The notes beneath the pieces were generated by a model that was not told where the DNA came from, did not search any database, and saw only the letters and a list, made by a program, of their open reading frames with translations. Position numbers and translations under genes: made by a program. A DNA stretch of 64,000 bases from Flagellimonas myxillae (GTDB lineage: Bacteria; Bacteroidota; Bacteroidia; Flavobacteriales; Flavobacteriaceae), in the NCBI RefSeq assembly GCF_023502235.1, contig NZ_JAMFLY010000001.1, forward strand, positions 1,612,001 to 1,676,000, in the 5' to 3' direction. Positions 5,239 through 23,157 of this stretch are shown here, in pieces (within the stretch, counting starts at the first letter, position 1; every line of letters begins with the position of its first letter).

Positions 5239-5248
5239 AATGTTAGAG

Positions 5249-5689
5249 TTAGTTGTTGGTTTTATCTTTGGCCAAAGGAGATACGACGGTGTCAAAACCA
5301 TTGAGGTCAATATCATCTATCCAATCAAAAAAGGCGATAAGATCTTCCGCCTCTTCGTCCGAAAATCCATAGGCAACCATTTTTCTACCGTTTGGTGCCC
5401 AGGCATTAGGAGTGGTAAGTACGGCCTTGATATACCCCTTACCCCTTCGGTCGATAACCTTGGTTAGTTCTGGTGCATAGTAAGCGCCTTCCCCTAAAAT
5501 GGTATGGCAGCCCATGCAGTTGTTGGCTTCCCATAATTGTTTTCCACGAACAACCTGTTCTGTAATGTTCTCGTAATTGGATTGATCTTGTTCCTTGCTA
5601 AAGGAATAGATCGTGAGCCCTATGAAAATAAGAAACGTCACAACAGTTCCCCCAAGAAAAAAAGTACGTGCTTGTTTTTTTGATAACAT
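5249..5689 (-). CDS. norC: nitric oxide reductase, cytochrome c subunit NorC
   Basis: 146 residues with one N-terminal membrane anchor (about 10-29) and a periplasmic cytochrome c domain. The haem site CMGCH is at 58-62, and M104 in GRKMVAYGF is the probable axial ligand. NorC passes electrons to the haem of NorB. It is the first gene of the nor operon, and the start ATG lies about 33 bp from the AT-rich inverted repeat proposed as operator. Confidence 0.95.
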   Translation of the reverse strand: MLSKKQARTFFLGGTVVTFLIFIGLTIYSFSKEQDQSNYENITEQVVRGKQLWEANNCMGCHTILGEGAYYAPELTKVIDRRGKGYIKAVLTTPNAWAPNGRKMVAYGFSDEEAEDLIAFFDWIDDIDLNGFDTVVSPLAKDKTNN

Positions 5690-5882: not shown

Positions 5883-7130
5883 CTACTCTTTTAGGAGCAC
5901 TTGCATCATGGCCTTGGCAGAGGTGGCACCTATTTCTGCAATTCGGTCCCTCGGGGTATGGTCCCCAATCTCATAGGTTATTCCCGTGGCATTTTGGCCA
6001 TACAAGAACCATCCTTTGGAAACGGGCATTGTACTATTGGCAGCAGCTTCGTTTACCATATACCCCTTTATATCCCTTTCCAAAATTTCAAACCAGTCGT
6101 CGATGAAATTCGGTAAGGTGGTTCCCTCCCGCTTTACATTGGTATAAAAAACATCTTCATAGGTAGAATGGAAATCCAGACCCAAAACGATCCCGCCCTT
6201 GTCCTTTTTACTGGCTTTGGTAATGTAGGTAACAGCATTTTTTATTTCTGGCTGACGGTATTTCGACCAATCACGGTTAAGGTCTATGCCATTGGCATTG
6301 TGTCTCCAATGTCCCAAGTCTACCCCGTCAGGATTAAGGATTGGAAAGGCCAATACCCTATAGCTATTCAAAAATTGGGTGGAAAGTTCCGATTGATCCA
6401 CAATGGCCTTAAGAAAATGTTGAAAAGCAAAGAATCCGGTTACCTCGGGTGGGTGTTGCCTAGTCATTAAAACAATGATAGGTTTCCCTTCCGCATCCCC
6501 GTGGTGGATATCCAAAACCGGGAGGTTTTTCCCCATTTTTGATACCCCTGCACTACCTAAGCGGACAAAGTCCCTGTCCTTAACTATTTCTTGCCGAATC
6601 CAGTCCCCAACATCCTTGGAGGAGTTTATTTCCTGGGCCGCTATTGTCTGGGGCTCTTTTTGCAGTTCGAGTTTGAGCAAGGGCCCATTTTCAGTATGGA
6701 TCAAATCCAGGGAATCAATTACCGTCCATTCCCCATTTATCTTTCGTTTTGGCTTGTATCTGTGGTCAAATCCCTCTGGGTAGGTGAATGCAAAGTAGAC
6801 CTTGTTTGGAACCTCCGACCATGTCTGAAAAGCGTAGTACGGACTTTTATTTATTGGTGTATTTTCAGGATAAAACTGCAGGGTAATTGTAGAGTCGTTA
6901 AGTTGATAGGCCCCATTTAGTCGGGCCCCGTCGAACTCATTACTGACCCAAACCCCAATATCCTTAAATTCGTACGTTTTCTTGGTTTGATAGACAATCT
7001 GTTTGTCCGTTGTATCCACCGACTTTTCAGACTTTACCTTCTTCACGGTGCAACCTGCCATAAAAACCAGAGCTGCGCCTACAACAAACAACAAGCCTTT
7101 CTTTCTAGATAATAGGATTCTTTTTTTCAT
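5883..7130 (-). CDS. M14-family zinc carboxypeptidase lipoprotein (second of two)
   Basis: 415 residues from the ATG at 7130; a longer frame to 7184 would overlap the symporter gene. The lipoprotein signal ends at C27 (VFMAGC). An N-terminal beta-rich domain (about 50-190) precedes an M14 peptidase domain. Zinc ligands are H226 and E229 (HPPE) and H321 (DFHS), the substrate-binding NR pair is in DLNRDW (283-288), and the catalytic glutamate is E387 (TYEIGDH). The beta-domain plus M14 architecture recalls the cytosolic-carboxypeptidase/deglutamylase branch, but substrate cannot be read from sequence. It is the last gene of the operon, before a hairpin terminator, and paralogous to the gene at 11590-12744. 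Confidence 0.88.
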   Translation of the reverse strand: MKKRILLSRKKGLLFVVGAALVFMAGCTVKKVKSEKSVDTTDKQIVYQTKKTYEFKDIGVWVSNEFDGARLNGAYQLNDSTITLQFYPENTPINKSPYYAFQTWSEVPNKVYFAFTYPEGFDHRYKPKRKINGEWTVIDSLDLIHTENGPLLKLELQKEPQTIAAQEINSSKDVGDWIRQEIVKDRDFVRLGSAGVSKMGKNLPVLDIHHGDAEGKPIIVLMTRQHPPEVTGFFAFQHFLKAIVDQSELSTQFLNSYRVLAFPILNPDGVDLGHWRHNANGIDLNRDWSKYRQPEIKNAVTYITKASKKDKGGIVLGLDFHSTYEDVFYTNVKREGTTLPNFIDDWFEILERDIKGYMVNEAAANSTMPVSKGWFLYGQNATGITYEIGDHTPRDRIAEIGATSAKAMMQVLLKE

Positions 7131-7152
7131 TTTAGTCTTGTTCTTATTAAAA

Positions 7153-8469
7153 TTACTTGGCCTTATTTTGTTCGTAATTGTCATCCCAATTTTTGATTTT
7201 GGGCTCCCCTAACTTCCCGACCGATTTCGCAACCAACATGGATACTGCACCATCACCTGTAACATTTACCGAGGTCCTCAGCATGTCCAAAGGTCTGTCC
7301 ACCGCAAAAATCAAGGCCAGGCCAGCCTCCGGAATTCCAGCATAGCCCATCACCCCAACCAACATCACCATACCTGCACCTGGCACTGCCGCAGAACCAA
7401 TGGATGCCAAAGTTGCGGTGGCAATTATGCCCAGTTGGGTAGCAAAGTCCAAGTCCATGCCAAAGGCTTGTGCAATAAATACCGCGGCTACGGCTTGATA
7501 TAGGCTTGTACCATCCATGTTGATGGTGGCTCCTATGGGTAAAACAAAACTGGCGGCTTCCTCCTCAACGCCCAAATGTTCCGTAACCCGTTCCATGGTA
7601 ACGGGTAAGGTTGCAGCGCTGGAACTTGTGGAAAAGGCCAAAAGTTGAGCCGGGGAAATCCCGTTGATGAAAAAACGGGGAGTACGCTTGGTGAAAAAAT
7701 AAACCAACAGGGTATAGATGGCAATCATTACCAACAACCCCAAAATCACGGTTGTGGAGTACCAACCCAAGGCCTTGAACAGGTCCGCACTAGGTGCTTC
7801 CACCACAATTGCCGCCAATAGGGCAAATACACCATAGGGTGCGGCCAACATTATGAGGTCCACCATTTTTAAAATGACCTCATTAAATCCGTCAAAAAAG
7901 TGCTTTACCGTGCTACCTACTTCTGGGGGAATCAAAATAAGGCCTATTCCAAAGAAAACTGCAAAGAATATTACCTGGAGCATATTCCTGTTGCTGGTTG
8001 CGGAAGCGAAAATGTTGTCCGTAACCAAATCCTCCAAGGGCTTTAGTGGACCTTCTTCTTTTCTACTTTTTGCAGTGTCTTTGTAGGTTTGGGTGCTCTG
8101 GGTATAGTTAGAGACCATTTCGGTCCGCGTGGTTTCGCTTATGGACGTCCCCGGGCGGATCAGGTTTACCAAACACAACCCAATGCTAACCGCCATTACC
8201 GTTGTGGTCAAATAAATTCCTATGGTCCTCCCTCCCATTTTGGAAAGCTTTGAAATATCTTTTAAATCGGAAACTCCTTTAATCAGTGCGGCAAGAATCA
8301 ATGGAATAGCGATAAGTTTGAGCGCATTGATGAATATTTTGCCGAAGGGTTTTATCCAATCCTGAACAAACCCTTTGCCCCAACCAAAGTTGGAAAGGGC
8401 CAGCCCTAGGAGAACCCCTAGTACCATACCAATCAATATTTTCCAGTGGAGTGCAAGTTTTGGTTTCAT
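7153..8469 (-). CDS. Na+/H+:dicarboxylate (glutamate/aspartate) symporter, DAACS family
   Basis: 438 residues with the eight-helix plus two-hairpin pattern of the GltP/GltPh/DctA family. The serine-rich hairpin (STSSSAATLP) and the NMDGT motif of the ion/substrate site are intact, and the C-terminal DMLRTSVNVTGD segment has the arginine/aspartate region of acidic-amino-acid transporters. It should import glutamate, aspartate or a C4-dicarboxylate across the inner membrane. It lies 15 bp after the lipoprotein racemase gene and 23 bp before the second M14 gene, so it is the natural uptake step for an acidic amino acid released in the periplasm. Confidence 0.92.
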   Translation of the reverse strand: MKPKLALHWKILIGMVLGVLLGLALSNFGWGKGFVQDWIKPFGKIFINALKLIAIPLILAALIKGVSDLKDISKLSKMGGRTIGIYLTTTVMAVSIGLCLVNLIRPGTSISETTRTEMVSNYTQSTQTYKDTAKSRKEEGPLKPLEDLVTDNIFASATSNRNMLQVIFFAVFFGIGLILIPPEVGSTVKHFFDGFNEVILKMVDLIMLAAPYGVFALLAAIVVEAPSADLFKALGWYSTTVILGLLVMIAIYTLLVYFFTKRTPRFFINGISPAQLLAFSTSSSAATLPVTMERVTEHLGVEEEAASFVLPIGATINMDGTSLYQAVAAVFIAQAFGMDLDFATQLGIIATATLASIGSAAVPGAGMVMLVGVMGYAGIPEAGLALIFAVDRPLDMLRTSVNVTGDGAVSMLVAKSVGKLGEPKIKNWDDNYEQNKAK

Positions 8470-8483
8470 AGTGGTGAGGTTGG

Positions 8484-10025
8484 TTAAATCTTGCTTTCTT
8501 CTTTAAGGTCCTTTGTCTTCTCGCTTGTTTTATTGAAATGCTGCATCAGTTCATAGACATAAGGAATCTGCTTTTGGAAACGCGATAAAATATCCGCTGA
8601 AATGTTGTCCCTGCTAAAAGGAACCACCTTAACATATTCCTGAATTTCCCCAGCCTTCCTACCGTATTTAAAGTCGTAGGGGAATCGACCCGATTGGTCA
8701 ATCACGTTGGCCGCATTGTCCCTATTGGCCACACTGATGTAAAACTCGCTTTCGTCGATGTTTCCATTGGGGTTAAACAAGGCTTGTCCTTTTAGGTGGG
8801 CGAAGAGTTCTTTGGCCGTATCTACAGCGGGATCAATGAGCTTTACATCCTGAACCATTAAATCGCGGTATAGAAATTTACCATTCTTTCCCCTGTAACT
8901 ATAAAGTTCCTCTAGGATTTCGGAGATTTCTTGGGTCATATAGGGGTAATGGGTACATCCCAAAATGATGGATTTAAGTTTGTTTGTTGTCTTTGACTGG
9001 CGAATTTGTTCCATCAATGTTACCAGATGGTAGCGTACATAGTTTTTGGCATCATTTATCTGAAGGATGGAGCAATCATCCGATTTTTCACTATCGCACA
9101 GCATTTTGCTATCGTCAAAATCGAAGTTGTAAATATCAAAAAGGGTTCTATCTATTTTCACCTCCCCGTCCAAACTGGGTCCCTTGTATGCCTCTCTGGG
9201 TTTTTTAAGATTTTTATCGAAGTAATCTGGATCCTCATCCACAGCTTCCGCGATGCCCACACCTCCTTGGGAAAAGACTTCAATTTTTCCGGTATAACCC
9301 AATTCGTCCTTCATTCTTAATAGGGTATTGCGATAACCTTTTGAAGCCACCGTGCCGGCCGTGGCCAAAACACCCACAATAGCATCCTCATCTTTTGACA
9401 TACTCTCCAAAGTGCCCCGCACCCCGGCATCGATGACCCCGATGACCTTAATATCCGAGTTCGCCTTTTTTAGGAATTCCTCAATATAATCTTTACCATA
9501 GGCCGTTGCAGTATTACAGGCAATAACAAGGGCTTTTACAGGTTGTTTGTCCGTATTTACGCTTGGGTCCAATGCGTTGGAGTAGTATTTATTGCCCAAT
9601 AAAAACTGGGCATCCTTAATAATGTGTTCGTTCAGTAGATCTCCTTTCCCTACCCCGGAATAGTTCCCATAGGGCATATTGGCCTGATCTCCCAAATAGA
9701 TGAAGGATTCTTTGTTAAAATCCAATTCCCCGTCACTCCCATTTTTGTGGGAATCGTTTTGGTTTTCGTCATAATTCACAATGGCTTTGAGCACCGTAAG
9801 TCCACCAGTACCCGAATCGAAGACACCAATGGGAAGTGTTTTGTCATTGCTGGGATAGTTCTTGAAATCGATATGATAAAAATTGTCCTCATCATTTATG
9901 ATGGTGTTGACTATGTCACCCTTTTTGGAAGGCTGTTCGGCAGATTTTTGTGTGCCCGTATTTTGTTTGCAAGACGTCCATAGGGCTACCGCCATTATTG
10001 AAGTGATGATTTTTATGTGTCTCAT
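8484..10025 (-). CDS. lipoprotein with a complete Asp/Glu racemase (MurI-like) active site
   Basis: 513 residues, about twice the usual 260-280 of glutamate racemase. A lipoprotein signal ends at C19 (WTSC). The racemase hallmarks follow: GVFDSGTGG (67-75), LGDQANMPYG (111-120), the first catalytic cysteine C170 in IACNTATA, and the second in GCTHYP (C357, H359). Both catalytic cysteines are therefore present. The extra length is an N-terminal linker, insertions around 245-330 and a C-terminal extension. MurI enzymes normally supply D-Glu for cell-wall synthesis in the cytoplasm. A lipid-anchored version cannot do that directly and more likely converts D-Glu or D-Asp released outside the inner membrane. 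Neighbours (D-aminoacylase, carboxypeptidases, acidic amino-acid symporter) fit this. Activity and direction are inferred. Confidence 0.85.
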   Translation of the reverse strand: MRHIKIITSIMAVALWTSCKQNTGTQKSAEQPSKKGDIVNTIINDEDNFYHIDFKNYPSNDKTLPIGVFDSGTGGLTVLKAIVNYDENQNDSHKNGSDGELDFNKESFIYLGDQANMPYGNYSGVGKGDLLNEHIIKDAQFLLGNKYYSNALDPSVNTDKQPVKALVIACNTATAYGKDYIEEFLKKANSDIKVIGVIDAGVRGTLESMSKDEDAIVGVLATAGTVASKGYRNTLLRMKDELGYTGKIEVFSQGGVGIAEAVDEDPDYFDKNLKKPREAYKGPSLDGEVKIDRTLFDIYNFDFDDSKMLCDSEKSDDCSILQINDAKNYVRYHLVTLMEQIRQSKTTNKLKSIILGCTHYPYMTQEISEILEELYSYRGKNGKFLYRDLMVQDVKLIDPAVDTAKELFAHLKGQALFNPNGNIDESEFYISVANRDNAANVIDQSGRFPYDFKYGRKAGEIQEYVKVVPFSRDNISADILSRFQKQIPYVYELMQHFNKTSEKTKDLKEESKI

Positions 10026-10052
10026 AATTGCTGATTTTTGTTTTGGTAACGA

Positions 10053-11609
10053 CTATTTTGTCAAAACCTTACCGTTTAGTTTTTGCGTGAACTCCCCCTG
10101 TTCCAAAGCTATCTTCCCGTTGATAATGCTGTATGCCAAACCTTCAGCAAATTGAAATGCGTCGGTATAGTCAGCTTTGTCCATAAACTTTTCTGGATGG
10201 AAAGCAATGATATCTGCAAAGTATCCTATTTCTAACTTCCCTCGCTGAGGAATCCTGAAAATTTCTGCAGTCTTTGAAGTACTTCCATTGATAAAATCCG
10301 CTACCCCAATTACACGATCGGTTTTAACGTATTTGTGGTATTTTCTTGGGAAGGAACCATATTTTCGGGGATGTCCTGTATTACCGTCCGAACCCGTTAC
10401 CACCCAATCCTGTTTCATAAAATTTTCAATATCGTAGGGATTCATATTAAAGGAAGCCACACGGACATATCCACTTTGCAAAATGGAATACACGGCTTGC
10501 TCTGGGCTAACCCTTAAATCTTCCGATATTTCCAAAAGTGTTTTTCCCAGAAACCTATCGTCATCACATTTCACGATCAATAGTTTATCTGGACCGCCCC
10601 TTTTGGTAATGTTCATTTTGGTATCCTGAAGTACCTTTGTTTTATATTTCGGGTCATTTGCCCGAATCAACAGTGAATCTTTTCCCCCACTTTCGGCCCA
10701 TCTTGGGGATACCGCCGAATTTAAACTTGTTGCCGAAGCGTCGTAGGGGTATTGATTGGCGGTTACCTCTATACCTACTTTGTGAGCATTATTAACCAAG
10801 GTAATGATGGAATCGCTCTGCTTCCAAACATCCACTCCCAAGCATTTTATGTGCGAAATATGAATGGGCAATTTAGCCTGTCTCCCAATTTCAATAGCTT
10901 CTTTAATAGCGGTAATCAGACCAACGGTGCTGGAACCCTCATCCCGTAAATGCGTATCGTAAACACCATCATTCTGGGCGACCACTTTCGCAAGGGCTAT
11001 CACCTCATCGGTTTGGGTATAACTCCCTGGGGCGTAATACAGGCCCGTTGACATCCCGAAGGCTCCTTCCTCCATTTCTTTCTGCACTAGTTCGCACATT
11101 TTTTGGAGTTGCTCGCTTGATGGTCGGGTATCGCTGTTGCCAATAACCGATTTTATTACCTCATGATGCCCCAAAAGTGGTACCACGTTGGTCCCAATAC
11201 CTTGTTCCAAATACAGCTTCTTATATTTTGACAAAGGATAGAAACTGTCTCCATCGTTACCAACCACGACGGTGGTCACACCTTGCATTAAAAATGGGAG
11301 GTTATGGGCTTCATCCGGTTTGTTCAAATCCCTATCGGCGTGCGTATGGGGGTCGATAAAACCTGGGGAAACGATCAACCCGGTTGCATCTATCGTTTTC
11401 TTTGGGTTGATGTGGTCTGTTGCTGTTCCAATAAAAACAATCTTATCGTCTTTGATGCCAATGGCATTTGAAGCAGGGTTTTGATCTACACCATTGTACA
11501 CCGTCCCGTTTATAATGAGCAAATCAACATTAAGCTTTGGGTGGGAACAGCCTATCACACCGATAAAAACAAGGGCTATATGTAGTAATCTACTCCGAAA
11601 AAGCACCAT
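10053..11609 (-). CDS. D-aminoacylase-like amidohydrolase lipoprotein (N-acyl-D-amino-acid deacylase family)
   Basis: 518 residues. A lipoprotein signal ends at C21 (GVIGC). The amidohydrolase metal motif GFIDPHTH is at 83-90. Family blocks follow: GMSTGLYYAPGSYTQTDEV, the YDTHLRDE block, IHISHIK, and GSDGNTGHPRKYGSFPR. Relatives hydrolyse N-acyl-D-amino acids, including D-Glu and D-Asp derivatives. The position usually occupied by the metal-binding cysteine of D-aminoacylase (GNCG) reads GNDG here (D119), so the metal site may differ. The start overlaps the upstream M14 gene by 20 bp, indicating tight co-expression. It probably acts in the periplasm or on the outer membrane's inner face. Confidence 0.85.
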   Translation of the reverse strand: MVLFRSRLLHIALVFIGVIGCSHPKLNVDLLIINGTVYNGVDQNPASNAIGIKDDKIVFIGTATDHINPKKTIDATGLIVSPGFIDPHTHADRDLNKPDEAHNLPFLMQGVTTVVVGNDGDSFYPLSKYKKLYLEQGIGTNVVPLLGHHEVIKSVIGNSDTRPSSEQLQKMCELVQKEMEEGAFGMSTGLYYAPGSYTQTDEVIALAKVVAQNDGVYDTHLRDEGSSTVGLITAIKEAIEIGRQAKLPIHISHIKCLGVDVWKQSDSIITLVNNAHKVGIEVTANQYPYDASATSLNSAVSPRWAESGGKDSLLIRANDPKYKTKVLQDTKMNITKRGGPDKLLIVKCDDDRFLGKTLLEISEDLRVSPEQAVYSILQSGYVRVASFNMNPYDIENFMKQDWVVTGSDGNTGHPRKYGSFPRKYHKYVKTDRVIGVADFINGSTSKTAEIFRIPQRGKLEIGYFADIIAFHPEKFMDKADYTDAFQFAEGLAYSIINGKIALEQGEFTQKLNGKVLTK

Positions 11610-12744
11610 TGTTTTGTTTTTCCAATAAGGTTTTCATGAGTTGTTCGGCATAGACCTCGGCCTTTTTTCGAATGGTATCCCTGTTGATTTCGTCTCCATC
11701 TTCGTAGGTTACCGCTTCAGTGTTAAAGGCATTGATAAAGTAATTGTAGCAATATGGCAGTTCTTGACTTCTTCGTCGAGCCTCCACTGTGAAGGAAGAT
11801 GTGGAATCGATTTTCTTGATCCATTCTGGGATAACACCAATAGTTTTGACCTCGTTTACCGAATCGAGAACCAAAATATAGGGACCACTATATGAAGTAT
11901 GGAAGTCCAGCGCAAAACGGATTTTTTTACCTTGTTGGACCTTATCCTCCACAAACTGCTTTACAGTTTGGGTTTCAGGCTGTGTAAAATCAATCCAATC
12001 CCTATTCAAGTCCACTCCCTTGGCATTGTGCCTCCAGTTGCCCATGTCGGCCCCATCTGGATTCAACAGGGGGAAGGTATAAATATTGAAAAATTTCCTA
12101 AACGCCTTTGCTGTTTCGGCTTCCGAGAAAAGGGTCTCATAGAAGCTTTTAAATCCGATGGTTCCTCCAGGGATCTCCGGTGGATGTTGTCTTGCAACCA
12201 ATACAATGGCGTTATTTGCATTCTCTGGTTCATGCACTATGGCATAAATATCTTTACCTAATACCGTTTTCCCAGCTACCACAATTTGCGTTTGATCAAA
12301 TGTTTTCATCCAGGCATAGGTATCGTCCGAAGTTTCAATTTCTTGGGCCGAAACATACAGTTTTTTAGGAGATACCTCTAATTGTAAGGTAGCCGTGTGG
12401 TCAAGTGTATCAATTTCGATCTTCGAACTATCCATGGGTTGCCAATGAATTTTATCCGTGCTCAGCTTGGGTACGTAACGATGTTGGTACGCTCCATAAT
12501 CCAAGGTTAAATTGATTGTAGTATTGCCCTTGGCTGTTACTGCAAAGGCATACCACGGACTTTTGTTTACCGGTTCAAATGCGGGTAGAACCTTTGCTCT
12601 ATAGGCATTCTTCCCGGTAACCTCTACCGCTGCCAACCGGGCACTTTTAAAGGAGACATCAAAAATGACTTCATCAGAATCCTTTTTGCCACAGGCAACA
12701 AGCAGGACAAGGGTAAGTATCCCTAAAAAATATTTTGCTGGCAT
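11590..12744 (-). CDS. M14-family zinc carboxypeptidase lipoprotein (first of two)
   Basis: 384 residues. A lipoprotein signal ends at C18 (LLVAC). A beta-rich N-terminal domain (about 25-130) is followed by the M14 catalytic domain. Zinc ligands are H187 and E190 (RQHPPE) and H282 (DFHTS). DLNRDW at 245-250 holds the substrate-binding arginine, and E348 (VTYEDGD) is the catalytic glutamate. It shares architecture and motifs with the gene at 5883-7130, pointing to an old duplication within the operon. It sits between SusD and the deacylase and probably trims peptides imported by the SusC/D pair. Confidence 0.88.
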   Translation of the reverse strand: MPAKYFLGILTLVLLVACGKKDSDEVIFDVSFKSARLAAVEVTGKNAYRAKVLPAFEPVNKSPWYAFAVTAKGNTTINLTLDYGAYQHRYVPKLSTDKIHWQPMDSSKIEIDTLDHTATLQLEVSPKKLYVSAQEIETSDDTYAWMKTFDQTQIVVAGKTVLGKDIYAIVHEPENANNAIVLVARQHPPEIPGGTIGFKSFYETLFSEAETAKAFRKFFNIYTFPLLNPDGADMGNWRHNAKGVDLNRDWIDFTQPETQTVKQFVEDKVQQGKKIRFALDFHTSYSGPYILVLDSVNEVKTIGVIPEWIKKIDSTSSFTVEARRRSQELPYCYNYFINAFNTEAVTYEDGDEINRDTIRKKAEVYAEQLMKTLLEKQNNGAFSE

Positions 12745-12791
12745 TTTAGTATGGCAAGGATTGGTCTAAACGATTACTAACGGTTTGAATT

Positions 12792-12825
12792 AACAGGCTG
12801 TCCAGGGTTGATTGAACAGCCTGTT
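12792..12825 (-). terminator. intercistronic hairpin between susD-like and M14 genes
   Basis: Perfect 10-bp arms AACAGGCTGT (12792-12801) and ACAGCCTGTT (12816-12825) enclose a 14-base loop. On the minus strand the stem is followed by TTAATTC, a weak T tract. This is either a leaky terminator or a 3'-end stabiliser lowering peptidase expression relative to susCD. Confidence 0.5.
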
Positions 12826-12880
12826 TTCAGAACAACACTTAATTTTAAAAACTAAACTTGAACTAACTCAATCCTTTAAA

Positions 12881-14269
12881 TTACTGGTTCACAGGGGTTT
12901 TTACAAAAATATCAGCTATATCCGGAACATTGGCCTCGTTGGTATTTTCCTCGGAGAATGGGTATAGAAATCTCTCTGGATGCTGGCTTCCCACATTGAA
13001 CGGAACTCCTACTTGTATGGCTACTGGGTCCTTTTTGGTCCTACGTAAATCGGTGAAGCTCACCAATTCGGCAAAGAAGGAAACATAGCGTTCCTGGATG
13101 ATTTCCCTTAACAGGGCATCTTCCATAGATAGGGAACCATCCACATTTTCTATGCCCCCCGATTCGAAATCGGCTTGAACATAATCGTCATAGATTCCGG
13201 TGGTTATTGCAAAATGTTCCCCATTTCTAAGATTACTCCGATGCTCGTTCAATTTCGTCAATGCAGTGGCGAAGTCATTGGACCTAATAGCGGCTTCTGC
13301 CCAGGTCAGTAAACTTTCCTGAACCGATACAAGATTCATAGGCTCGTCCACCCCGGCAATACCATTTAAGTTTATTTGGGTGCCATCAAAATAATAGGCC
13401 GCCCTGTCCACCTCGTCTGTCTTGGCATTGTTCCTGTTGTTTACACCGGTCATCAATTCAATTAAATAGGTGCCCTCGGTGGTCAGATCATCGGGAAAAC
13501 TCCCGGTAAAGAACTGGTTCAACAAGTTGGTATCTCCGGTGAGCACTACCGCCGGAGGCGTATATTGCATGGATTCGGAAGCCATTGAAACCCCATTTTG
13601 GACAGCTCCAATAGCGCTACCATAATCTCCTACCTCAAGATACAATCTTGCTTTAAGGGTATAGGCCGCCCTAATCCAACCATTGGAATCCCCTCCAAAA
13701 AACAAATCCTCTGAAATTCCTCCACCTGTTCCCGCAGCTTGTAAATCTGCAATGGCTTCATCCAGTAAGCTCTGTAGGCCACTGTAAACCGCCAATTGTC
13801 CATCATAAGCTGGAGTTGGGATTTCTGGATTTACCGCTTCGGTAAAAGGTACATCCCCAAACATACTAGCCGCCGTACCAAGGGCATGGGCCTCCAAAAC
13901 CTTGGATGCACCAAAGAAAAAGTCCTTGTTGGTTACTGGAATACCACTTCGCAACTCTCTTGCTTGTTGCACAACGCCCACGTAAATATTGAACCATGGG
14001 GTATCCGAGTTTGTATTTCCATACTGATATTCTTGAATGGGGGCGAATCGCCCACTTCCTGCAAAATTGCCTGTCCAAACTCCTGCTGCCCAGTTTAAAT
14101 ATCCCAATTGGGCTGTGATATCCGCCAATTGCATTCCCGTGAATAGGGTTTGTCCATCGACGGTGCTAATGGTGTTCGGGTCGTTGTCGTTGATATCATC
14201 TACAATTTCCTGACATGCGAGGAAACTGGAAAGAATTACTATTGCTGCGCTTATTTTAAATACTTTCAT
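12881..14269 (-). CDS. SusD/RagB-like outer-membrane nutrient-binding lipoprotein
   Basis: 462 residues. The lipoprotein signal ends at C19 (FLAC). The body has a SusD/RagB helical fold with the blocks NWAAGVWTGNF, a long TPR-like segment rich in ALTKLNEHRS-type helices, and the late ERFLYPFSEENTNE motif. These resemble the shorter SusD-like type often annotated as 'nutrient-binding outer membrane lipoprotein'. It forms the lid on the SusC barrel and binds substrate at the surface. It begins 10 bp after the susC-like stop. The genes downstream are peptidases and amino-acid enzymes, so a peptide substrate is more likely than a glycan; this is inference from context. Confidence 0.92.
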   Translation of the reverse strand: MKVFKISAAIVILSSFLACQEIVDDINDNDPNTISTVDGQTLFTGMQLADITAQLGYLNWAAGVWTGNFAGSGRFAPIQEYQYGNTNSDTPWFNIYVGVVQQARELRSGIPVTNKDFFFGASKVLEAHALGTAASMFGDVPFTEAVNPEIPTPAYDGQLAVYSGLQSLLDEAIADLQAAGTGGGISEDLFFGGDSNGWIRAAYTLKARLYLEVGDYGSAIGAVQNGVSMASESMQYTPPAVVLTGDTNLLNQFFTGSFPDDLTTEGTYLIELMTGVNNRNNAKTDEVDRAAYYFDGTQINLNGIAGVDEPMNLVSVQESLLTWAEAAIRSNDFATALTKLNEHRSNLRNGEHFAITTGIYDDYVQADFESGGIENVDGSLSMEDALLREIIQERYVSFFAELVSFTDLRRTKKDPVAIQVGVPFNVGSQHPERFLYPFSEENTNEANVPDIADIFVKTPVNQ

Positions 14270-14279
14270 AACTCCTTTT

Positions 14280-17200
14280 TTAAAATGTTAAACTCAAGTT
14301 GAACAAATAGGATTTGGTAGATGGATTGGTGTAGTAATCCAATCCTCTTGAGTTCCCAACCCCGGCAAAATTTTTGTCCGGGTCATTACCGATTACATCT
14401 GTCCAAAGCACAAGGTTTCTTCCTGTGAAGCTCAGGTTCAAATCGGAGAGTTTTAATTTTTCCAATACCTTCTTACCAAAGGAATAGGTAAGGGTCAACT
14501 CCCTTAAACGGGTCCAGGTGGCATCTTGCAGCCATAGTTCACTGAATCCTCTGTTTCCAGCGCCATTTCCGCGGTACCAGTTCTGCTCTAAAAGAACCGG
14601 ACCAGCACCAAAATCGAATAGGTTACCTCGAACTACGTCTCCTGCGGAATAGGTTGCCCCGGTCACATCGTTGATTCCATCTGATGGAATGGTCACTTTG
14701 TTTCCAGATTCCCTACTAAATCCACGTTGGGAATTGATTTGACGGGTCATATCATAGAAATCTCCGCCCTGGGAATGTTCAAACAAAACATTCAACGCCA
14801 AATTTTTGAACCCTAAATTGAATCCTAGGCCCCCGGTCCAGTCCGGGTTTGGATCTCCAATAACATCGTATTCTGGAGTTCCGACCGGAAATCCATTTGC
14901 ATCCAGTTGGATACTTCCATCTGCATTGCGCGGTAATTTTCCGCCAAAAATAGCTCCCATTTGGTATCCTACAGCAGCAACTGAATCACCCGTGCCAAAT
15001 CCTGTTAGCGTTTGAACATCTGCTTCGGCCAAACTTGTCACCTCGTTTTTGTTGGTTGCAAAATTTCCGTAAGGGGTAAAAGTCCAAAACTCGTTATCTC
15101 GCAAAATGTTGGCACTAAACTCAAATTCAAACCCGTGGTTTTTCATTGAGGCCCCATTGGTATAGATGCTCGAGAAGCCACTGGAAGGTGACCTATCCAA
15201 TGTTAAAAGGATATCTTCAATATCGTTGGTGTAATAGGTAAAGCTGGTATTCAACATGTTCTCGAAAAATCTAAACTCCAAACCTCCTTCAATTTCAGTT
15301 TTGATCTCCGGCTTAAGGTTGGCGTTCCCAAGTCTATTATCTAGTCTAAAACCACCTCCGTGGTTGGTTGCGGACAGGTTTCCAAATATTCCATTACTAT
15401 AGGTAAAGTCCCCCTCATAATTTGTGGCACTTCTATAAATATCGGGTTGGATACCCACCTTACCCCAGCTCAACCTTGCCTTGGCAAAGCTTACAAAGCT
15501 ATCTTCGGGGAAAAAATCGGCATCAGAAAATTGCCAAGCCACACTGGCCGATGGGTAGAAAAAAGGATCCTTAATGGTTGAAGCGGCTTCAACGGTACCG
15601 GATAGGTCGATATAAAGTTGCTCATACAATCCAAAATTGGCCGTGGCAAAGCCTCTATTGGACCTTCTATGACTGATAAAATTATCTCCTTGGATTATTC
15701 TTGAGTTGTCCAAAGTGTATATTTCATCGTTCACAAGAAAATCGCTACCAACAATTGTTTCTCTATTGAACTTCCTATCGTTGATATTCCATCCCAAAAT
15801 AAAGGAAGAAGTAATGTCATCGGTAAGGTTCCTATCATACTTGGCGATGGCATCAAAATTCAATTCTGTTGCCCCGATGCTCTCAAAGGTTAAATTTCCT
15901 TCCAACCTAGGAATAAGCCCAGTCCGAGCCGAACCGCGTGGATATAAATAGGTTCGATCATCACTATAAGTATCCACACCTCCCCTAAGTTTTATGTTCA
16001 AACCTTCCAATGGGTACACATCAAGCTCTGCAGAATAAATATGGCGGTTCACAATATTTGGGGCTTTTTGTTTGTTGGTGGTCCAAAGTGGGTTGTTGTA
16101 AAATGGACGTTCGGAAGCCCCTACCGGATTTCGGTAAGACCTATGCCTACCACTAAACTCAGCGCCTGTGTCACTAACATAGGTACCCGTATAGTCCCTA
16201 ATATCAAAATCGGCAATGTTCCTGTAAAACCCGAGAAGCAATCCTGCGGTATTGGAGTTTTGCTGAATTCTATTGGCACTAATCCTGGAGTATTTTCCCT
16301 TTAATTTTAGGTTGATGTAATCGTTGAATCTATGTGAAGCACTCAGGTTCACTGTATGTCTTCTGTAGTCATTATTCTTAATTATCCCTTCTTGATCAGT
16401 ATTTCCCAAGCTGAAGAAGATATTACTCTTTTCGTCGCCCCCGCTCACACTCACAGATTGTTCCAAGAGCACCCCGGTCCTAAAGACCTGGTCAAAGTTT
16501 TCATCCAAAAAGGTCTCTTGGGAATTTTTACCACCGTGAAGGTTGTCTGTAGTTCCATCAGGAATAGGATAATAAGTCCTTCCCGTTTGATCACCGATAA
16601 AGAAGCCTCCCGAAGTATCAAAATTGTCCTCTCCGCCGGAACGCGTGGAAATTTCATCCCCCCATCCATGCAGATAGCCATACCTAAATCTTCCATCAAG
16701 TCCTTGTCCGTAGTTAGATTGTAGAGGCGCAATGGCGTTAACTTCATCTAAGGAAACAGCGGTTTTTAGATTGACCCTAAAACCTCTCCTACCCGATTTT
16801 GTGGTGATAATTACCACCCCATTGGAGGCCCGAGATCCCCAAAGGGCAGCTGCAGATGCACCCTTTAGCACTTGTAAGGTCTCAATATCGTTAGGATTGA
16901 TATCGTTCAACCGCGACTGCTGGGAGGTACCGTTACCCGTTGCACTACTCGCCCCACCTTGGGTGCTGCTGTTACTAATGGGTATTCCATCAACAATAAT
17001 CAAGGGTTGGGTACTTCCAAAAATGGTGTTGGCACCCCGAATTCGGATATTGGAGCCAGCTCCCGGATCACCATTGGACCGAGTGATGTTAACCCCAGCC
17101 ATTTTACCTTGAATGGCATTGGCGACCGAGGTTTCCCCAGAACGAACCAAAGCCTCGGGTTTTACGCTGGAAACCGCGCTACCCAATTTATCGGTACGTA

Positions 17201-17876
17201 CTTCAAAACCCAAAGCGGTAACCACTACTTCATCCAAAGCCTGTGCATCTTCCTTTAATACAACATTGACAGTGGACTGTCCGTTTACGGGAACCTCCTG
17301 AGTGAGGTATCCAATATAACTTACCACCAATACGGCGTCCCCACTTGGCACTTCAAGGGAATAATTTCCATCAAAATCCGTAGTGGTCCCATCCGTGGTT
17401 CCCTTGACCACAATACTGGCTCCTGGTAATGGTCCAACATCATCGGTCACCGTACCCGAAACCGCCAATTGTGGTGCTTCTTTGGTGGCCCTTGGTTGGG
17501 TTTTAATCGCATTTTTTTTCAACACGACCTGTCTTCCATTAATGTGGTAGTCAATACGGTTGGGCTTAAAATGCTTTTCCAGTGCACCTTCAATGGTCTG
17601 GTTCTTAATTTTAAGATCCCCTTTTCTTTCATTCAAAGTTGGCAGCAAATCCTCACCGTACATAAAAACAAACTCACTTTGCCTCTCAATGCTATAAATG
17701 ATATCCAGCAATGTGGCATCCTTTAAATTGACCTTGAGCTTCGTTTTTTGTGAGTAAGCGTCTGTGTAAGAATAAAGTGTGAAGAGCAATAAAAATAGTG
17801 TCAGAAACCTCATCACTTTTTTGATTTTGTCCATAAAATCGCCACGGCGATCATACGGAAACCCCATTTTTTCCAT
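14280..17876 (-). CDS. SusC/RagA-like TonB-dependent outer-membrane transporter with STN domain
   Basis: 1198 residues. After the signal sequence (hydrophobic core about 23-41) there is an STN domain (about 48-125), a carboxypeptidase-regulatory-like beta-sandwich (about 135-212), a TonB plug starting near ALDEVVVTALG, and a 22-strand barrel ending in the aromatic SYLFNLSLTF. The STN domain is the signalling module that contacts a FecR-type anti-sigma factor. The genes immediately upstream are exactly such a sigma/anti-sigma pair, so occupancy of this transporter probably controls the operon. ATG at 17876 is used; ATG at 17834 also leaves an intact signal. Confidence 0.95.
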   Translation of the reverse strand: MEKMGFPYDRRGDFMDKIKKVMRFLTLFLLLFTLYSYTDAYSQKTKLKVNLKDATLLDIIYSIERQSEFVFMYGEDLLPTLNERKGDLKIKNQTIEGALEKHFKPNRIDYHINGRQVVLKKNAIKTQPRATKEAPQLAVSGTVTDDVGPLPGASIVVKGTTDGTTTDFDGNYSLEVPSGDAVLVVSYIGYLTQEVPVNGQSTVNVVLKEDAQALDEVVVTALGFEVRTDKLGSAVSSVKPEALVRSGETSVANAIQGKMAGVNITRSNGDPGAGSNIRIRGANTIFGSTQPLIIVDGIPISNSSTQGGASSATGNGTSQQSRLNDINPNDIETLQVLKGASAAALWGSRASNGVVIITTKSGRRGFRVNLKTAVSLDEVNAIAPLQSNYGQGLDGRFRYGYLHGWGDEISTRSGGEDNFDTSGGFFIGDQTGRTYYPIPDGTTDNLHGGKNSQETFLDENFDQVFRTGVLLEQSVSVSGGDEKSNIFFSLGNTDQEGIIKNNDYRRHTVNLSASHRFNDYINLKLKGKYSRISANRIQQNSNTAGLLLGFYRNIADFDIRDYTGTYVSDTGAEFSGRHRSYRNPVGASERPFYNNPLWTTNKQKAPNIVNRHIYSAELDVYPLEGLNIKLRGGVDTYSDDRTYLYPRGSARTGLIPRLEGNLTFESIGATELNFDAIAKYDRNLTDDITSSFILGWNINDRKFNRETIVGSDFLVNDEIYTLDNSRIIQGDNFISHRRSNRGFATANFGLYEQLYIDLSGTVEAASTIKDPFFYPSASVAWQFSDADFFPEDSFVSFAKARLSWGKVGIQPDIYRSATNYEGDFTYSNGIFGNLSATNHGGGFRLDNRLGNANLKPEIKTEIEGGLEFRFFENMLNTSFTYYTNDIEDILLTLDRSPSSGFSSIYTNGASMKNHGFEFEFSANILRDNEFWTFTPYGNFATNKNEVTSLAEADVQTLTGFGTGDSVAAVGYQMGAIFGGKLPRNADGSIQLDANGFPVGTPEYDVIGDPNPDWTGGLGFNLGFKNLALNVLFEHSQGGDFYDMTRQINSQRGFSRESGNKVTIPSDGINDVTGATYSAGDVVRGNLFDFGAGPVLLEQNWYRGNGAGNRGFSELWLQDATWTRLRELTLTYSFGKKVLEKLKLSDLNLSFTGRNLVLWTDVIGNDPDKNFAGVGNSRGLDYYTNPSTKSYLFNLSLTF

Positions 17877-17891
17877 AATTTAGTTAGTTGT

Positions 17892-17953
17892 TTGTTTAAA
17901 CAATTCCTGTTTTTACAGGTTACCCGCCAGAGCATGGTGCGAACATGCTCTGG
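17892..17953 (-). promoter_or_regulatory. palindrome and two hairpins in the leader between fecR-like and susC-like genes
   Basis: The 81-bp gap contains TTGTTTAAACAA (17892-17903, perfect palindrome), a CCTGT-TTTT-ACAGG hairpin (17906-17919) and a strong stem with 10-bp arms CCAGAGCATG (17927-17936) and CATGCTCTGG (17944-17953) around a 7-base loop. The large stem lies directly after the FecR stop codon. It has a T tract only on the plus side, so on the transcribed strand it is more likely an attenuator or RNA-stability element than a full terminator. Confidence 0.4.
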
Positions 17954-17957
17954 TTTT

Positions 17958-19169
17958 TTATTTGGTAATCAAATATCCATTGACTCCATTTTTTTCATAT
18001 TTGGCCGAAGCCGATACGGCTAAATTCTCCATGGTTTCTTCCATGGTGTCATTAAGGTCCAGTTTACCGGTCAGCCTAAATTCTTCGTTAATACTTTCAG
18101 CCAATTCAATCTCGATGTTGTAATAGTCTTCCACGCGTTTCACAACATCTTTCAACCTTTCCCCCCTGAATATCAACAATCCCTTGGTCCAGGATATGTA
18201 GATTTCGGTATCGACCTGCATTTTGCTTTGCACGGCTTTAGCCGATACACTCCACTCCACAAGTTCGCCAGGTTGCATAATGGTTTTCTTGTCCTTTCCA
18301 AATAGGCTGTTCTTGGCTTTGTTGACCAAGTGAACCTCACCTTCGGCCAATACGGTGGTAACCCTATCGTTTTTGCCATAGGAATTCACGTTAAACTTGG
18401 TGCCCACCGCGGTCACGGAAAATGCTTCGTCTTTTAGCACCTTGACCGTAAAGGGTCTGCTGGCGTCCGACTCCACCTCAAAAAAGGCCTCTCCATCTAG
18501 ATAAACTTCCCTGGAATCTCCTAGGAACTTCTTTGGAAATACCAATCTGGAACCGGAGTTTACATGCACAATGGAACCATCCGACAGGGTAATTTTACTA
18601 TGCTTCCCGAAAGGCACGATGAGTTGGTTCATTTGAACTTCTTCAACAGCAGTGCCCGCACTGATATCCAACGTATCCTTTTTGTTGATTACCAAATTGT
18701 TGTTACCGGAGTAATTGATGATAGACCGTTTTTCATCAATGGCAATCTCTTGGTCGTTTTCAAGTATAAGTTTGGTATCAGTGACCGAATCTATGGCCAC
18801 TTGCAACAAGGAATCTATATTGACATTTTCTTTTTCGGAAGATTCAATAGTTAAATAATAGGCAGTACCAACAAGGACCAAAAAGATAGCTGCGTATTTT
18901 AAGAAATTCAGGTATATCGGTCCCTGACCAGATTTCGCCAGAACTACCTTGTCGTAAATCCTATCTAAAATTTCCTGCTTTTCGTTTTGGGATAGTTTGT
19001 CATTGGTCGCCTGCAAGGCTCCCAAGTATTGTCTTAATATTTTAATTTTCCCTTCCTCCTCAGGATTTTGACTGATGTATGTTTCCCAATAAGCGTTTTT
19101 TTCATCCGTGGGATCAACAATCCAATCCACAAATTTTTCGTCATCGAGATATTTATTGAAATCGTTCAA
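17958..19169 (-). CDS. FecR-family anti-sigma factor
   Basis: 403 residues. A cytoplasmic N-terminal part (1-88) is followed by one membrane helix (89-107), a periplasmic FecR domain (VGTKFNVNSYG and LAEGEVHLV near its end) and a C-terminal DUF4974/STN-like domain (about 325-403). It should hold the sigma factor at 19310-19897 inactive until the STN domain of the downstream SusC protein signals. The assigned start is TTG at 19169; I found no in-frame ATG that gives a better N-terminus, so the exact start is uncertain. Confidence 0.9.
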   Translation of the reverse strand: MNDFNKYLDDEKFVDWIVDPTDEKNAYWETYISQNPEEEGKIKILRQYLGALQATNDKLSQNEKQEILDRIYDKVVLAKSGQGPIYLNFLKYAAIFLVLVGTAYYLTIESSEKENVNIDSLLQVAIDSVTDTKLILENDQEIAIDEKRSIINYSGNNNLVINKKDTLDISAGTAVEEVQMNQLIVPFGKHSKITLSDGSIVHVNSGSRLVFPKKFLGDSREVYLDGEAFFEVESDASRPFTVKVLKDEAFSVTAVGTKFNVNSYGKNDRVTTVLAEGEVHLVNKAKNSLFGKDKKTIMQPGELVEWSVSAKAVQSKMQVDTEIYISWTKGLLIFRGERLKDVVKRVEDYYNIEIELAESINEEFRLTGKLDLNDTMEETMENLAVSASAKYEKNGVNGYLITK

Positions 19170-19309
19170 TGCTATGCTATTTACCTCATAGGGACAGAAG
19201 TTTTCATTTTGTGGACACTTTTTTTAAACTTTTTTCGATTTTTTATCAGAATTGTTTCATTTCCGGCAATTAAATAAAGCCCGGATACCATCAAAAAAGG
19301 TAAGTGGAA

Positions 19310-19897
19310 TTATAGTATGCGTAGCATGGAATAGAACAGGACAATGCCCTTGTAGTCATCAAAAGCTTTGCTGTTCCTAAGTTTTTTAACCGCCCTGTAG
19401 ACTTGCTTTCTGACCGAGGCATGATCTATGCCCACGATTTCAGATATTTCCTCATAGGCAAGGCCCACACTAAAGCGTAGGTACATGATCTCTTTTTGTT
19501 TTGAAGTAAGGGTTTGAAGGGCCTTCGTAACCAGCTGTTTCTTTTCCTCGTCCAGTTCGGACAAGATTCTTTTATCCTCGAAATTGTGACCGGCACTAAA
19601 ACTCACCAAGGGCTGTTCGTGAAGTTTTAATTTTTTTCTTTCCTTTTTCTGCTTTTTGAAAATGGTATGCTTTAATGCCTTGAGAATATAAAATTTGATG
19701 TTGTAGGGTTCGGAAACTGCGTTTCTGCGTTCAAATATGTCAATGAAAACCTCTTGGATACTATCTTTTACCAATTCTTGGTCGGATTCCAATTTTAGGC
19801 CATAGGCATACATGTCATCAATACATGATCTATAGACGGATTCGAATGCTGTCTTGTCACCAGCTTTAAATCTTGACCATAAGTTGCCCTGATCCAT
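19310..19897 (-). CDS. ECF-type RNA polymerase sigma factor
   Basis: 195 residues. Region 2 lies at about 10-80 (ESVYRSCIDDMYAYG, then LVKDSIQEVFIDIF) and region 4 at about 125-180 (LTSKQKEIMYLRF, then YEEISEIVGIDHASVRKQVYRAVKKLR). It pairs with the FecR-like anti-sigma factor 140 bp downstream and the STN-containing SusC beyond, the standard Bacteroidota cell-surface signalling set. The expected targets are the susCD-peptidase genes downstream. The C-terminus is a short hydrophobic tail. Confidence 0.93.
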   Translation of the reverse strand: MDQGNLWSRFKAGDKTAFESVYRSCIDDMYAYGLKLESDQELVKDSIQEVFIDIFERRNAVSEPYNIKFYILKALKHTIFKKQKKERKKLKLHEQPLVSFSAGHNFEDKRILSELDEEKKQLVTKALQTLTSKQKEIMYLRFSVGLAYEEISEIVGIDHASVRKQVYRAVKKLRNSKAFDDYKGIVLFYSMLRIL

Positions 19898-20094: not shown

Positions 20095-20982
20095 TTAGAA
20101 CTTGAGATTCCCATCCTTGTCCCAAAGGCCCCAATAGGCACCTACATCGCCTTCGGCCCCAACTTTCCAGGACTCATCGAAGGAGGAGAAATAAAATATT
20201 TCAATATCATCTTCCTGTGACCATTTTTGGGTGTTCATAAAGTATTTTAACGCATTTTCCAGAGAGGGGAAGGCACCTTCCAAGTTGGTACCTTGACTGG
20301 GCCACCCGGTTTCCGAAATAATCACTTTTTTGCCGTTTCCGGCCCGAAGTGCGCGTTGGTACATATCTTTCATATACAATAGGGAATAATCCAGGTCACA
20401 CCCTTCCCAAAAGGGATAACAATTGGCCAAGATCACATCGCAGGCTTCGGTAATTCTGGGGCGTTCCGAAAATTCGTAGTAGGCATCAACGTAGCCCACC
20501 GTGGTATTCGGAATGGCATCCTTGACCAAATGGATAAAATCGAGCAATTCATCTTCGGTAAGATCCCCGCGGTACATTACCTCGTTTCCAACGGCAGCAA
20601 TATCGACATAACCTTCGTTGGCCAATTCAATAAGTCCAGCAATCTCCCTTTCATTGATTTCAGGATTATCGCCCAACCACGCACCCACAAGGGTCTGGAT
20701 GCCATACTCCTTAGCAATCTTGGGAATAATTTCATTGCCATCGGTACAGGAAAATGATCGTACCCATTTCGTATAGGGCTTAATAATTTCCATACGCTCA
20801 CGAATTTGTTCCTCGGTAAGTTGGTCTCCTGGATTTTGTCCTTCCACATACGGGCTAAAGCAAATGCCGTGCATGCCATCCTCAAGAGCCTGTCTGCCCA
20901 ATTTCTTTAGTTCTTTGACCGACTTGCCACTATAGTCCAAGGCCGCCAGTGCCAAAAATTTCTCTTTTCTTCCTGAAGACAT
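20095..20982 (-). CDS. GH17 beta-1,3-glucanase/glucosyltransferase-like enzyme, cytoplasmic
   Basis: 295 residues forming a single GH17 TIM barrel. The acid/base glutamate is E134 in AAVGNEVMYRGD and the nucleophile is E224 in IISETGWPSQ; both family motifs are intact. There is no signal peptide, so the enzyme should act in the cytoplasm on imported beta-1,3-gluco-oligosaccharides. It may be a hydrolase or a transglycosidase that reshapes chains for the GH149-like phosphorylase. It is the last gene of the glucan locus, on the same strand as the transporter and GH30 genes. Confidence 0.9.
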   Translation of the reverse strand: MSSGRKEKFLALAALDYSGKSVKELKKLGRQALEDGMHGICFSPYVEGQNPGDQLTEEQIRERMEIIKPYTKWVRSFSCTDGNEIIPKIAKEYGIQTLVGAWLGDNPEINEREIAGLIELANEGYVDIAAVGNEVMYRGDLTEDELLDFIHLVKDAIPNTTVGYVDAYYEFSERPRITEACDVILANCYPFWEGCDLDYSLLYMKDMYQRALRAGNGKKVIISETGWPSQGTNLEGAFPSLENALKYFMNTQKWSQEDDIEIFYFSSFDESWKVGAEGDVGAYWGLWDKDGNLKF

Positions 20983-21054
20983 ATTAGATATTCTTTTTGT
21001 TTGTTCTGTATGTTTAGGTTGCTTTGTTTCTTAACCGTGCCGTACCCAGAAATC

Positions 21055-23147: not shown

Positions 23148-23157
23148 AATAGTTGTT

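Follow-up and report, generated by a model that had tools for sequence, protein, structure and literature searches.

A SusCD-type locus of Flagellimonas myxillae encoding a putatively exported lipoprotein with the glutamate racemase fold

We analysed a 64,000-nucleotide stretch (the window) of the Flagellimonas myxillae genome (GCF_023502235.1, contig NZ_JAMFLY010000001.1, positions 1,612,001 to 1,676,000), in which nine genes lie on the minus strand between window positions 5883 and 19897. They encode an extracytoplasmic-function (ECF) sigma factor, a FecR-type protein, SusC, SusD, an M14 carboxypeptidase-like lipoprotein (M14a), a lipoprotein with the D-aminoacylase fold (DAA), a lipoprotein with the glutamate racemase fold (RACE), a symporter and a second M14 lipoprotein (M14b). 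We lean towards reading this region as a SusCD-type nutrient locus for peptides that bear D-glutamate (D-Glu), most likely peptidoglycan stem peptides (L-Ala-gamma-D-Glu-diaminopimelate, muropeptides). An earlier note, made from the sequence of the window, had proposed that peptides from peptidoglycan, poly-gamma-glutamate or similar are imported here and racemised in the periplasm, and the support that we find for this interpretation is comparative and structural: the gene set recurs in other genomes, with neighbours that are themed on D-Glu, gamma-Glu or muramic acid.

In the scheme that we propose, the ECF/FecR pair would sense transport via SusC, and SusCD would carry the peptide across the outer membrane. 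The M14 lipoproteins, or gamma-glutamyltransferase (GGT) in other lineages, would cut the carboxyl-side linkage of D-Glu, and DAA its amino-side linkage (to L-Ala or an N-acyl group), giving free D-Glu. RACE would then convert D-Glu to L-Glu outside the cytoplasm, and the symporter, which has the binding residues of L-Glu/L-Asp carriers, would import the product. Racemisation outside the cytoplasm would make a D-Glu importer unneeded and would keep foreign D-Glu from the cytoplasmic pool of wall precursors. We infer the substrates, the order of the steps and the direction of the pathway; what the analysis shows, as described below, is the genes with their conserved linkage, the catalytic residues, the export-type N-termini and the folds predicted for DAA and RACE.

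Recurrence and distribution of the gene set

Open reading frames (ORFs) were called in 85 loci (80 kept from at least 573 relatives of RACE, together with loci L020, L028, L029 and L032 and the window), and the same-strand runs around RACE were compared. Gene groups are label-propagation clusters of BLAST matches among the called ORFs, with families annotated on representatives. Omission of L032, whose racemase gene is broken (genome G300), leaves 84 loci, a sample that leans to close relatives; 67 of these are well flanked, having over 4 kb to either side, and the 17 without 4 kb on one side were left out of the counts of run contents.

DAA is encoded in 47 of the 84 loci and directly adjoins RACE in 43, with a median gap of 3 bp. 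It stands directly before RACE in 34 loci and after it in 10 (one locus has both), the DAA-RACE order being prevalent in Flavobacteriaceae loci and the RACE-DAA order in Echinicola, Belliella, Litoribacter, Anditalea and Gillisia. The runs of the 67 well-flanked loci contain DAA in 41 cases, SusC in 35, M14 in 22, GGT in 18, the symporter in 14, an fn3 lipoprotein in 13 and a 2,4-diaminopentanoate-dehydrogenase-like gene in 7. Because SusC and SusD are split over several groups while DAA and RACE stay, it is the enzymes and not the type of transporter that define the set. Among the 47 DAA loci, 20 have M14 only, 10 GGT only, 5 both and 12 neither, as if the two enzymes were interchangeable as far as gene content can tell. 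The earlier note had made its interpretation depend on conserved co-occurrence of these families in relatives; the set does recur, across many genera, with variation in gene order and in SusCD. In 12 of the 84 loci (L020, L029, L034-L039 and others) the gene directly after RACE encodes a lipoprotein of ~435 aa that has a single fn3 domain and, apart from this, a body without family assignment.

Matches to RACE were found in 2 of 296 genomes sampled from the class. Among 347 genomes sampled from the family, 14 have a match; these belong to 12 of 203 genera, and in one of them the gene is broken. In a species-level genome collection, at least 573 of at least 590 matched stretches encode a relative. 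The 80 kept loci come chiefly from Flavobacteriaceae, Saprospiraceae, Cyclobacteriaceae-like genera and Sphingobacteriaceae, and further ones from Ignavibacteria, Caldithrix, Sedimentisphaerales, Aminicenantes and a metagenome-assembled genome labelled Eremiobacterota. RACE is an accessory and patchy gene, though widespread. A close orthologue of DAA (>=57% identity) is present in 14 of the 347 family genomes, 12 of which carry RACE (Fisher p ~2e-18, with an identity cut picked after inspection of the list and genomes that are not independent). A looser match (E<=1e-60) is found in 64 of the 347, including 13 of the 14 RACE genomes. The partners also occur apart. The 19 kb stretch of G316 encodes DAA, SusCD, M14b and the dehydrogenase but no RACE, and the stretch examined in G324 encodes DAA but none of RACE, SusCD and M14; G563 has RACE without DAA. 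In G375 a 40%-identical DAA shares the locus with RACE.

The racemase-fold protein and its partners

The best model for RACE is the glutamate racemase family TIGR00067 (E=3.6e-29; 101.9 bits, below the cut-off of 146.65), and there is a weak cysteate-racemase match (E=2.9e-7). An AlphaFold model built on a 19-sequence alignment (pLDDT 88.9) was compared with the PDB using Foldseek, and ranks 1-46 were all glutamate racemases (E 2e-16 to 5.5e-10), with aspartate racemases at ranks 47-48. Residues D70 S71, C170 N171 T172 and C357 T358 H359 are invariant in the 19 aligned sequences, so that both racemase cysteines claimed by the earlier note are in place (C170 in ACNTAT, C357 in GCTHYP). The FDSG motif occurs in 82 of the 84 loci, ACNTAT in all of them and GCTHYP in 81; L061, L063 and L099 read GCTHFP in place of the last, and therefore retain the Cys-Thr-His. 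The RACE ORFs of L044 and L084, as called, begin within the gene. On its modelled fold, RACE is a candidate D-Glu to L-Glu converter. In L080 (9947-12892, Pseudoflavitalea rhizosphaerae) the RACE open frame reaches 981 aa, a possible fusion with a second domain.

Lipoprotein-type N-termini, judged by eye, are present in M14a, M14b, DAA, RACE and SusD, in agreement with the lipoproteins of the earlier note. Over the 84 loci, a crude rule assigned a lipobox to 63 RACE proteins, another hydrophobic N-terminus to 16 and neither to 5; of the 16, two or more (L069, L106) are called from a start within the protein, and three or more (L102, L109, L112) have a Cys that the rule overlooked. RACE is thus predicted, from its N-terminal sequences, to be exported and not cytoplasmic.

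RACE is distinct from the MurI of the cell. The window genome encodes a separate MurI on another contig, adjoining FolA- and Skp-like genes (by eye), and a separate MurI above the TIGR00067 cut-off is found in 13 of 14 genomes of one set and in 26 of the 34 genomes behind named loci (two genomes are common to both), on which basis the idea that RACE is in general the sole MurI of its cell was rejected. The two proteins have the same fold and the same Cys/Cys, Asp-Ser, Asn-Thr and His motifs. RACE differs in its signal or lipobox, its length of ~510 aa with insertions, its score below the TIGR00067 cut-off and the separate encoding of MurI.

The predicted fold of DAA is that of D-aminoacylase and N-acyl-D-Glu deacylase, and the protein matches NCBIfam PRK09061 with 178.9 bits (cut-off 340). 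Residues H88, H90, H220, H253, D408 and R415 are invariant in 16 aligned sequences; we take H88/H90 to be the His-x-His motif, H220, H253 and D408 the other metal or catalytic residues, and R415 the arginine of an HPR motif. The Arg expected to bind the D-Glu side-chain carboxylate in the deacylase could not be placed, as the alignment of DAA with 3gip ends short of it. Within the genome that contains the window, the one strong match of DAA is DAA itself, the next having E=1.7e-7. On the modelled structure, DAA is a candidate for releasing D-Glu from an N-acyl partner. M14a, in which HPPE, H282, E348, R238 and N247-R248 are invariant in 15 aligned sequences and to which 3k2k, 3l2n and 4a37 are the nearest solved structures, is a candidate for cleaving the bond on the C-side of D-Glu. 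The solved structure nearest the symporter is the aspartate transporter 9bgz (E=3.4e-93). The symporter scores 257 bits against the GltP equivalog (cut-off 638) and has all six equivalents of what we take to be the amino-acid site of GltPh (D390, D394, R397, T398, N401 and D405), which makes it a candidate, by sequence, for uptake of L-Glu or L-Asp.

Substrate clues and rival explanations

D-Glu is a standard component of bacterial peptidoglycan and contributes to the D-amino acids of marine organic matter. In G563 (L028, L149) and in the genome of L055 (with L150), RACE is the last gene of a muramic-acid/peptidoglycan operon that runs SusC, SusD (by eye), NamZ, SSS symporter, DUF6259-like protein, MurQ, GH3, GH18, FAD/Fe-S oxidase, glucosamine-6-phosphate deaminase with PIG-L, and RACE; a NagX-like gene precedes RACE in G563 only, not in the L055 operon. 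MurQ is above the equivalog cut-off in both operons (325.6 and 329.4 vs 302), as is NamZ (PF07075) above its own, at sites within L149 and L150, and the deaminase is above the NagB cut-off in the one examined (253.3 vs 236.9). The GH3 protein is labelled NagZ-like because it falls below the NCBIfam beta-N-acetylhexosaminidase cut-off (165 vs 207). The best model for the oxidase, below its cut-off, is the D-2-hydroxyglutarate dehydrogenase YdiJ, and to assign it the D-lactate set free by MurQ would be no more than a guess. The substrate of MurQ is muramic acid, a compound particular to peptidoglycan, and these operons are therefore the strongest sign that RACE serves peptidoglycan use.

Other neighbours bear on D-Glu or gamma-Glu. 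There are two groups of GGT proteins, one encoded in 15 loci and the other in 5. The loci of Flavobacterium degerlachei and F. weaverense have, in this order, a SusD-like gene (by eye), an enolase-superfamily enzyme, a beta-lactamase-family protein, DAA and RACE; the best models for the enolase-superfamily enzymes, all below cut-off, are the N-acetyl-D-Glu racemase DgcA (E=1.7e-61 and 2.9e-57) and L-Ala-D/L-Glu epimerase. Several loci encode N-formylglutamate-amidohydrolase-like, penicillin-amidase-like and beta-lactamase-family proteins, one of the last being D-aminopeptidase-like (below cut-off). The Gelidibacter gilvus locus continues after RACE and GGT with another racemase (TIGR00035, 134.8 vs 93.1; CuyB/asp_race type) and a DmpA-like protein recognised by eye and without an NCBIfam match. 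Because these accessory genes are repeatedly themed on D-Glu, gamma-Glu or muramic acid, peptidoglycan is favoured over poly-gamma-glutamate or the unspecified similar source of the earlier note. Two further observations concern the same subject. A 2,4-diaminopentanoate-dehydrogenase-like protein without evident signal adjoins SusD, M14 or DAA in L022, L024, L025 and L143 and might act on diaminopimelate freed from the stem peptide, and two NamZ_N (exo-muramidase-type) genes elsewhere in the window genome (G000:C1:194856-195461 and 349692-350300) are in keeping with peptidoglycan use.

The same chemistry could serve a different source, poly-gamma-glutamate or free N-acyl-D-Glu in place of peptidoglycan. 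We regard this as quite unlikely; GGT would in this case trim the amino end and DAA or M14 the carboxyl end before D-Glu is racemised and imported. The presence of GGT in 18 of the 67 well-flanked loci, the N-formylglutamate-amidohydrolase-like proteins and the DgcA-like enzyme, compatible with N-acetyl-D-Glu too, would all fit such a source; the RACE-ending operons with MurQ, NamZ and NagZ-like genes and the diamino-acid-dehydrogenase-like gene are unexpected for poly-Glu. It is unlikely, too, that RACE and DAA act on a compound other than D-Glu (Asp, another amino acid or an amino-sugar acid), with the symporter importing Asp or Glu. In DAA the position of the bridging-metal Cys of D-aminoacylase, which we take to be C96 in the A. 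faecalis enzyme, is occupied by Asp119, invariant in the 16 aligned sequences. The DAA family is varied in its substrates, and according to PMC9537276 its member OngB acts on a sugar acid (GlcNAc1A) with little or no activity on N-acetyl-D-Glu. These points, the weak cysteate-racemase match and the second racemase of Gelidibacter are met on the other side by TIGR00067 as the best model for RACE, by the rank of aspartate racemases below glutamate racemases in the fold list and by the many annotated neighbours with a D-Glu, gamma-Glu or muramic-acid theme.

We consider it very unlikely that RACE works in the opposite direction, producing D-Glu from L-Glu for wall editing, signalling or a supply of D-Glu where MurI is lacking. 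Eight of the 34 genomes behind named loci (those of L072, L075, L089, L101, L102, L103, L112 and L058; genome completeness not given) carry RACE and have no MurI above the TIGR00067 cut-off, so that a biosynthetic role is possible there, and RACE without partners in Sphingobacterium and in several loci outside Bacteroidota points the same way. Against this stand the MurI genes of most genomes in both sets, the association with DAA seen in the window and across 47 of the 84 loci, often with uptake genes, and the D-amino-acid-transaminase-like genes of the eight genomes without MurI above cut-off. The latter genes are all below the cut-off of their family, and TIGR01121 (D-amino-acid transaminase) gave no above-cut-off match in 14 genomes.

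A number of observations weigh against the scheme that we propose. Asp119, the activity of OngB and the eight genomes without MurI are among them. The M14 proteins are not MpaA, an assignment that was rejected because M14b scores 19.3 bits against a cut-off of 157 and M14a has no match. Of the 64 genomes of the family that match DAA at E<=1e-60, 51 lack RACE. G486, which belongs to the same genus as the window genome, has an M14b-SusC-SusD module next to a distant DAA (35%) and no RACE there. The MurQ operon is known from 2 of 84 loci; MurQ lay within the fetched sequence of one and came to light in the other when its stretch was extended, all other loci being kept at fetched length. Finally, 20 of the 67 well-flanked loci have none of the DAA, M14, GGT, FGase, MLE, beta-lactamase-family and penicillin-amidase groups; two of these are the peptidoglycan operons (L028 and L055) and one has other hydrolase groups (L080), which leaves 17 of 67 without a partner theme. 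The 17 include eight loci of Sphingobacterium, in which RACE comes behind RlmB/DnaX-like genes (by eye), and in several loci outside Bacteroidota RACE stands alone. Beyond the nutrient locus for D-Glu-bearing peptides, towards which we continue to lean, we are evenly divided over the wider proposition of a dedicated extracytoplasmic D-Glu salvage among Bacteroidota, with racemase homologues beyond, in which the D-Glu of foreign stem peptides would be freed and then racemised before import by a lipid-anchored, cofactor-free racemase and so stay unmixed with the D-Glu of the cytoplasmic wall pathway.

Layout of the locus and comparison with known systems

According to the ORF list and Pfam/NCBIfam searches (Table 1), the nine genes lie on the minus strand, in the interval and with the families that the earlier note gave. 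Its small gaps are also found: from M14a through M14b the genes overlap or lie at most 30 bp apart (M14a/DAA overlap 20 bp, DAA-RACE gap 27 bp, RACE-symporter gap 14 bp, symporter/M14b overlap 32 bp). SusC is followed by SusD on the same strand, both above cut-offs, which qualifies the region as a SusCD locus. The description of the transporter as STN-SusC stands for SusC (TIGR04056 above cut-off) and less well for STN: PF07660 matches weakly (14.9 bits, E=0.023, cut-off 28.4), though an N-terminal extension of ~138 residues is present.

Table 1. Genes of the locus in the window, from the first gene onwards
Product	Position	Strand	Basis
ECF-type sigma factor, 195 aa, first gene of locus	19310..19897	-	TIGR02937 73.8 bits vs cut-off 42.9; Sigma70_r4_2
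FecR-type anti-sigma factor, 403 aa as listed, TTG start	17958..19169	-	PF04773 (FecR) and PF16344 (FecR_C) above cut-offs
SusC/RagA TonB-dependent outer-membrane transporter, 1198 aa	14280..17876	-	TIGR04056 643.1 bits vs 368.25; TIGR04057 signature
SusD-like outer-membrane lipoprotein, 462 aa	12881..14269	-	PF12771 (SusD-like_2) 78.4 bits vs 27
M14 zinc carboxypeptidase-like lipoprotein (M14a), 384 aa	11590..12744	-	PF00246 55.5 bits
D-aminoacylase / N-acyl-D-Glu deacylase-fold lipoprotein (DAA), 518 aa	10053..11609	-	Amidohydro_3 / PRK09061-type
Glutamate-racemase-fold lipoprotein (RACE), 513 aa, putatively exported	8484..10025	-	Asp_Glu_race 35.1 vs cut-off 31; TIGR00067 E=3.6e-29
SDF-family (dicarboxylate / amino-acid) symporter, 438 aa	7153..8469	-	PF00375 409.9 bits
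Second M14 lipoprotein (M14b), 433 aa as listed	5883..7184	-	PF00246 62.3 bits

The earlier note's remark that no glycosidase is present holds within 5883-19897, GH17 and GH30 genes lying outside and upstream. A Pfam search found no carbohydrate-active enzyme among the genes of that interval, so that it does not qualify as a polysaccharide-utilisation locus. The GH17/GH30/MFS cluster (20095-26005; GH17, MFS_2, GH30 and GH17 genes), on the same strand, stops 197 bp upstream of the sigma gene and is probably a beta-1,3-glucan (laminarin) locus that adjoins the racemase locus and is not conserved with it. Downstream, at 583-5689, genes for an Rrf2-type regulator, VWA/CoxE, CbbQ/NorQ AAA, COX1-type and cytochrome c proteins look like a nitric-oxide reductase cluster. 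The ORFs of neither cluster have a cluster-mate around RACE in other loci, and the GH17/GH30/MFS genes were on that account handled as a separate locus. A glycan was set aside as the substrate, given the absence of carbohydrate-active enzymes within the locus and of recurrence of the upstream cluster with the racemase.

Scans for regulatory signals gave counts near chance for sigma-70-type promoters (32 matches vs 29.8 expected) and terminators (22 vs 17.1); a Bacteroidota-type promoter pattern had 2 matches in the window (3.3 expected) and none in the locus. Between FecR and SusC, a strong hairpin with a T-run lies at 17926-17954 on the strand opposite SusC. A hairpin of this kind (energy < -15) is found in 5 of 20 scanned FecR-SusC gaps, those of L043 (its second pair), L050, L072, L102 and L103, with a similar core in L050, L102 and L103; the window's own hairpin was cut off by that scan. 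Antisense small RNAs over the susC start are known for some Bacteroides loci, and the hairpin could be the end of such an RNA.

If this reading is true, the coupling of an exported racemase to SusCD-mediated peptide uptake and L-Glu symport would be a new way of eating cell walls, and a function would be given to a large family that sequence records now call glutamate racemase, Asp/Glu/hydantoin racemase or hypothetical. To our knowledge, all routes for D-Glu are cytoplasmic. Counts of glutamate racemase genes in environmental data, as in PMC12363236, may then mix biosynthesis with feeding. In the parts available, two papers on deep-sea D-amino acids or peptidoglycan (PMC12363236, PMC11044484) draw no distinction among glutamate racemases, and a locus of this kind is not mentioned. 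The earlier note knew of no described pathway with this layout, and we likewise did not find the arrangement in the open PMC literature searched, where expressions like 'periplasmic glutamate racemase', looked for as names of an exported enzyme, did not occur either.

Catabolism of murein peptides in E. coli, by the M14 amidase MpaA, L-Ala-D/L-Glu epimerase and a dipeptidase, is cytoplasmic and epimerises the dipeptide. It resembles the present locus in that an M14 enzyme cuts between gamma-D-Glu and diaminopimelate and the D-centre of Glu is handled to give L-Glu. In contrast, the enzymes of the locus have export-type N-termini, its M14 proteins are not MpaA, DAA is proposed to free D-Glu, and the putative racemase would act on the free amino acid without a cofactor. 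The DgcN/DgcA pathway also turns D-Glu into L-Glu for use, and a DgcA-like enzyme is found in two relatives of the locus; dgcN is described in PMC12363236 as the key gene of an irreversible and energetically costly racemisation pathway, whereas the window locus has a direct, putatively exported racemase. Tannerella forsythia, which scavenges MurNAc and muropeptides (MurT, MurK, MurQ, AmpG), is likewise a member of the Bacteroidota that uses external peptidoglycan fragments, and MurQ is also present in two RACE operons; its described parts process sugar or muropeptide via an inner-membrane permease, and the words 'racemase' and 'SusC' do not occur in the available part of PMC5388701. With RagAB and other SusCD loci under ECF/FecR control, the locus shares SusC, SusD, the ECF sigma factor and FecR; it differs in having no glycosidase inside and in a cargo of peptidase, deacylase, racemase and symporter genes. 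We rate the parts as known and the arrangement, a SusCD nutrient locus with putative extracytoplasmic D-Glu salvage chemistry, as one not described in the open literature searched.

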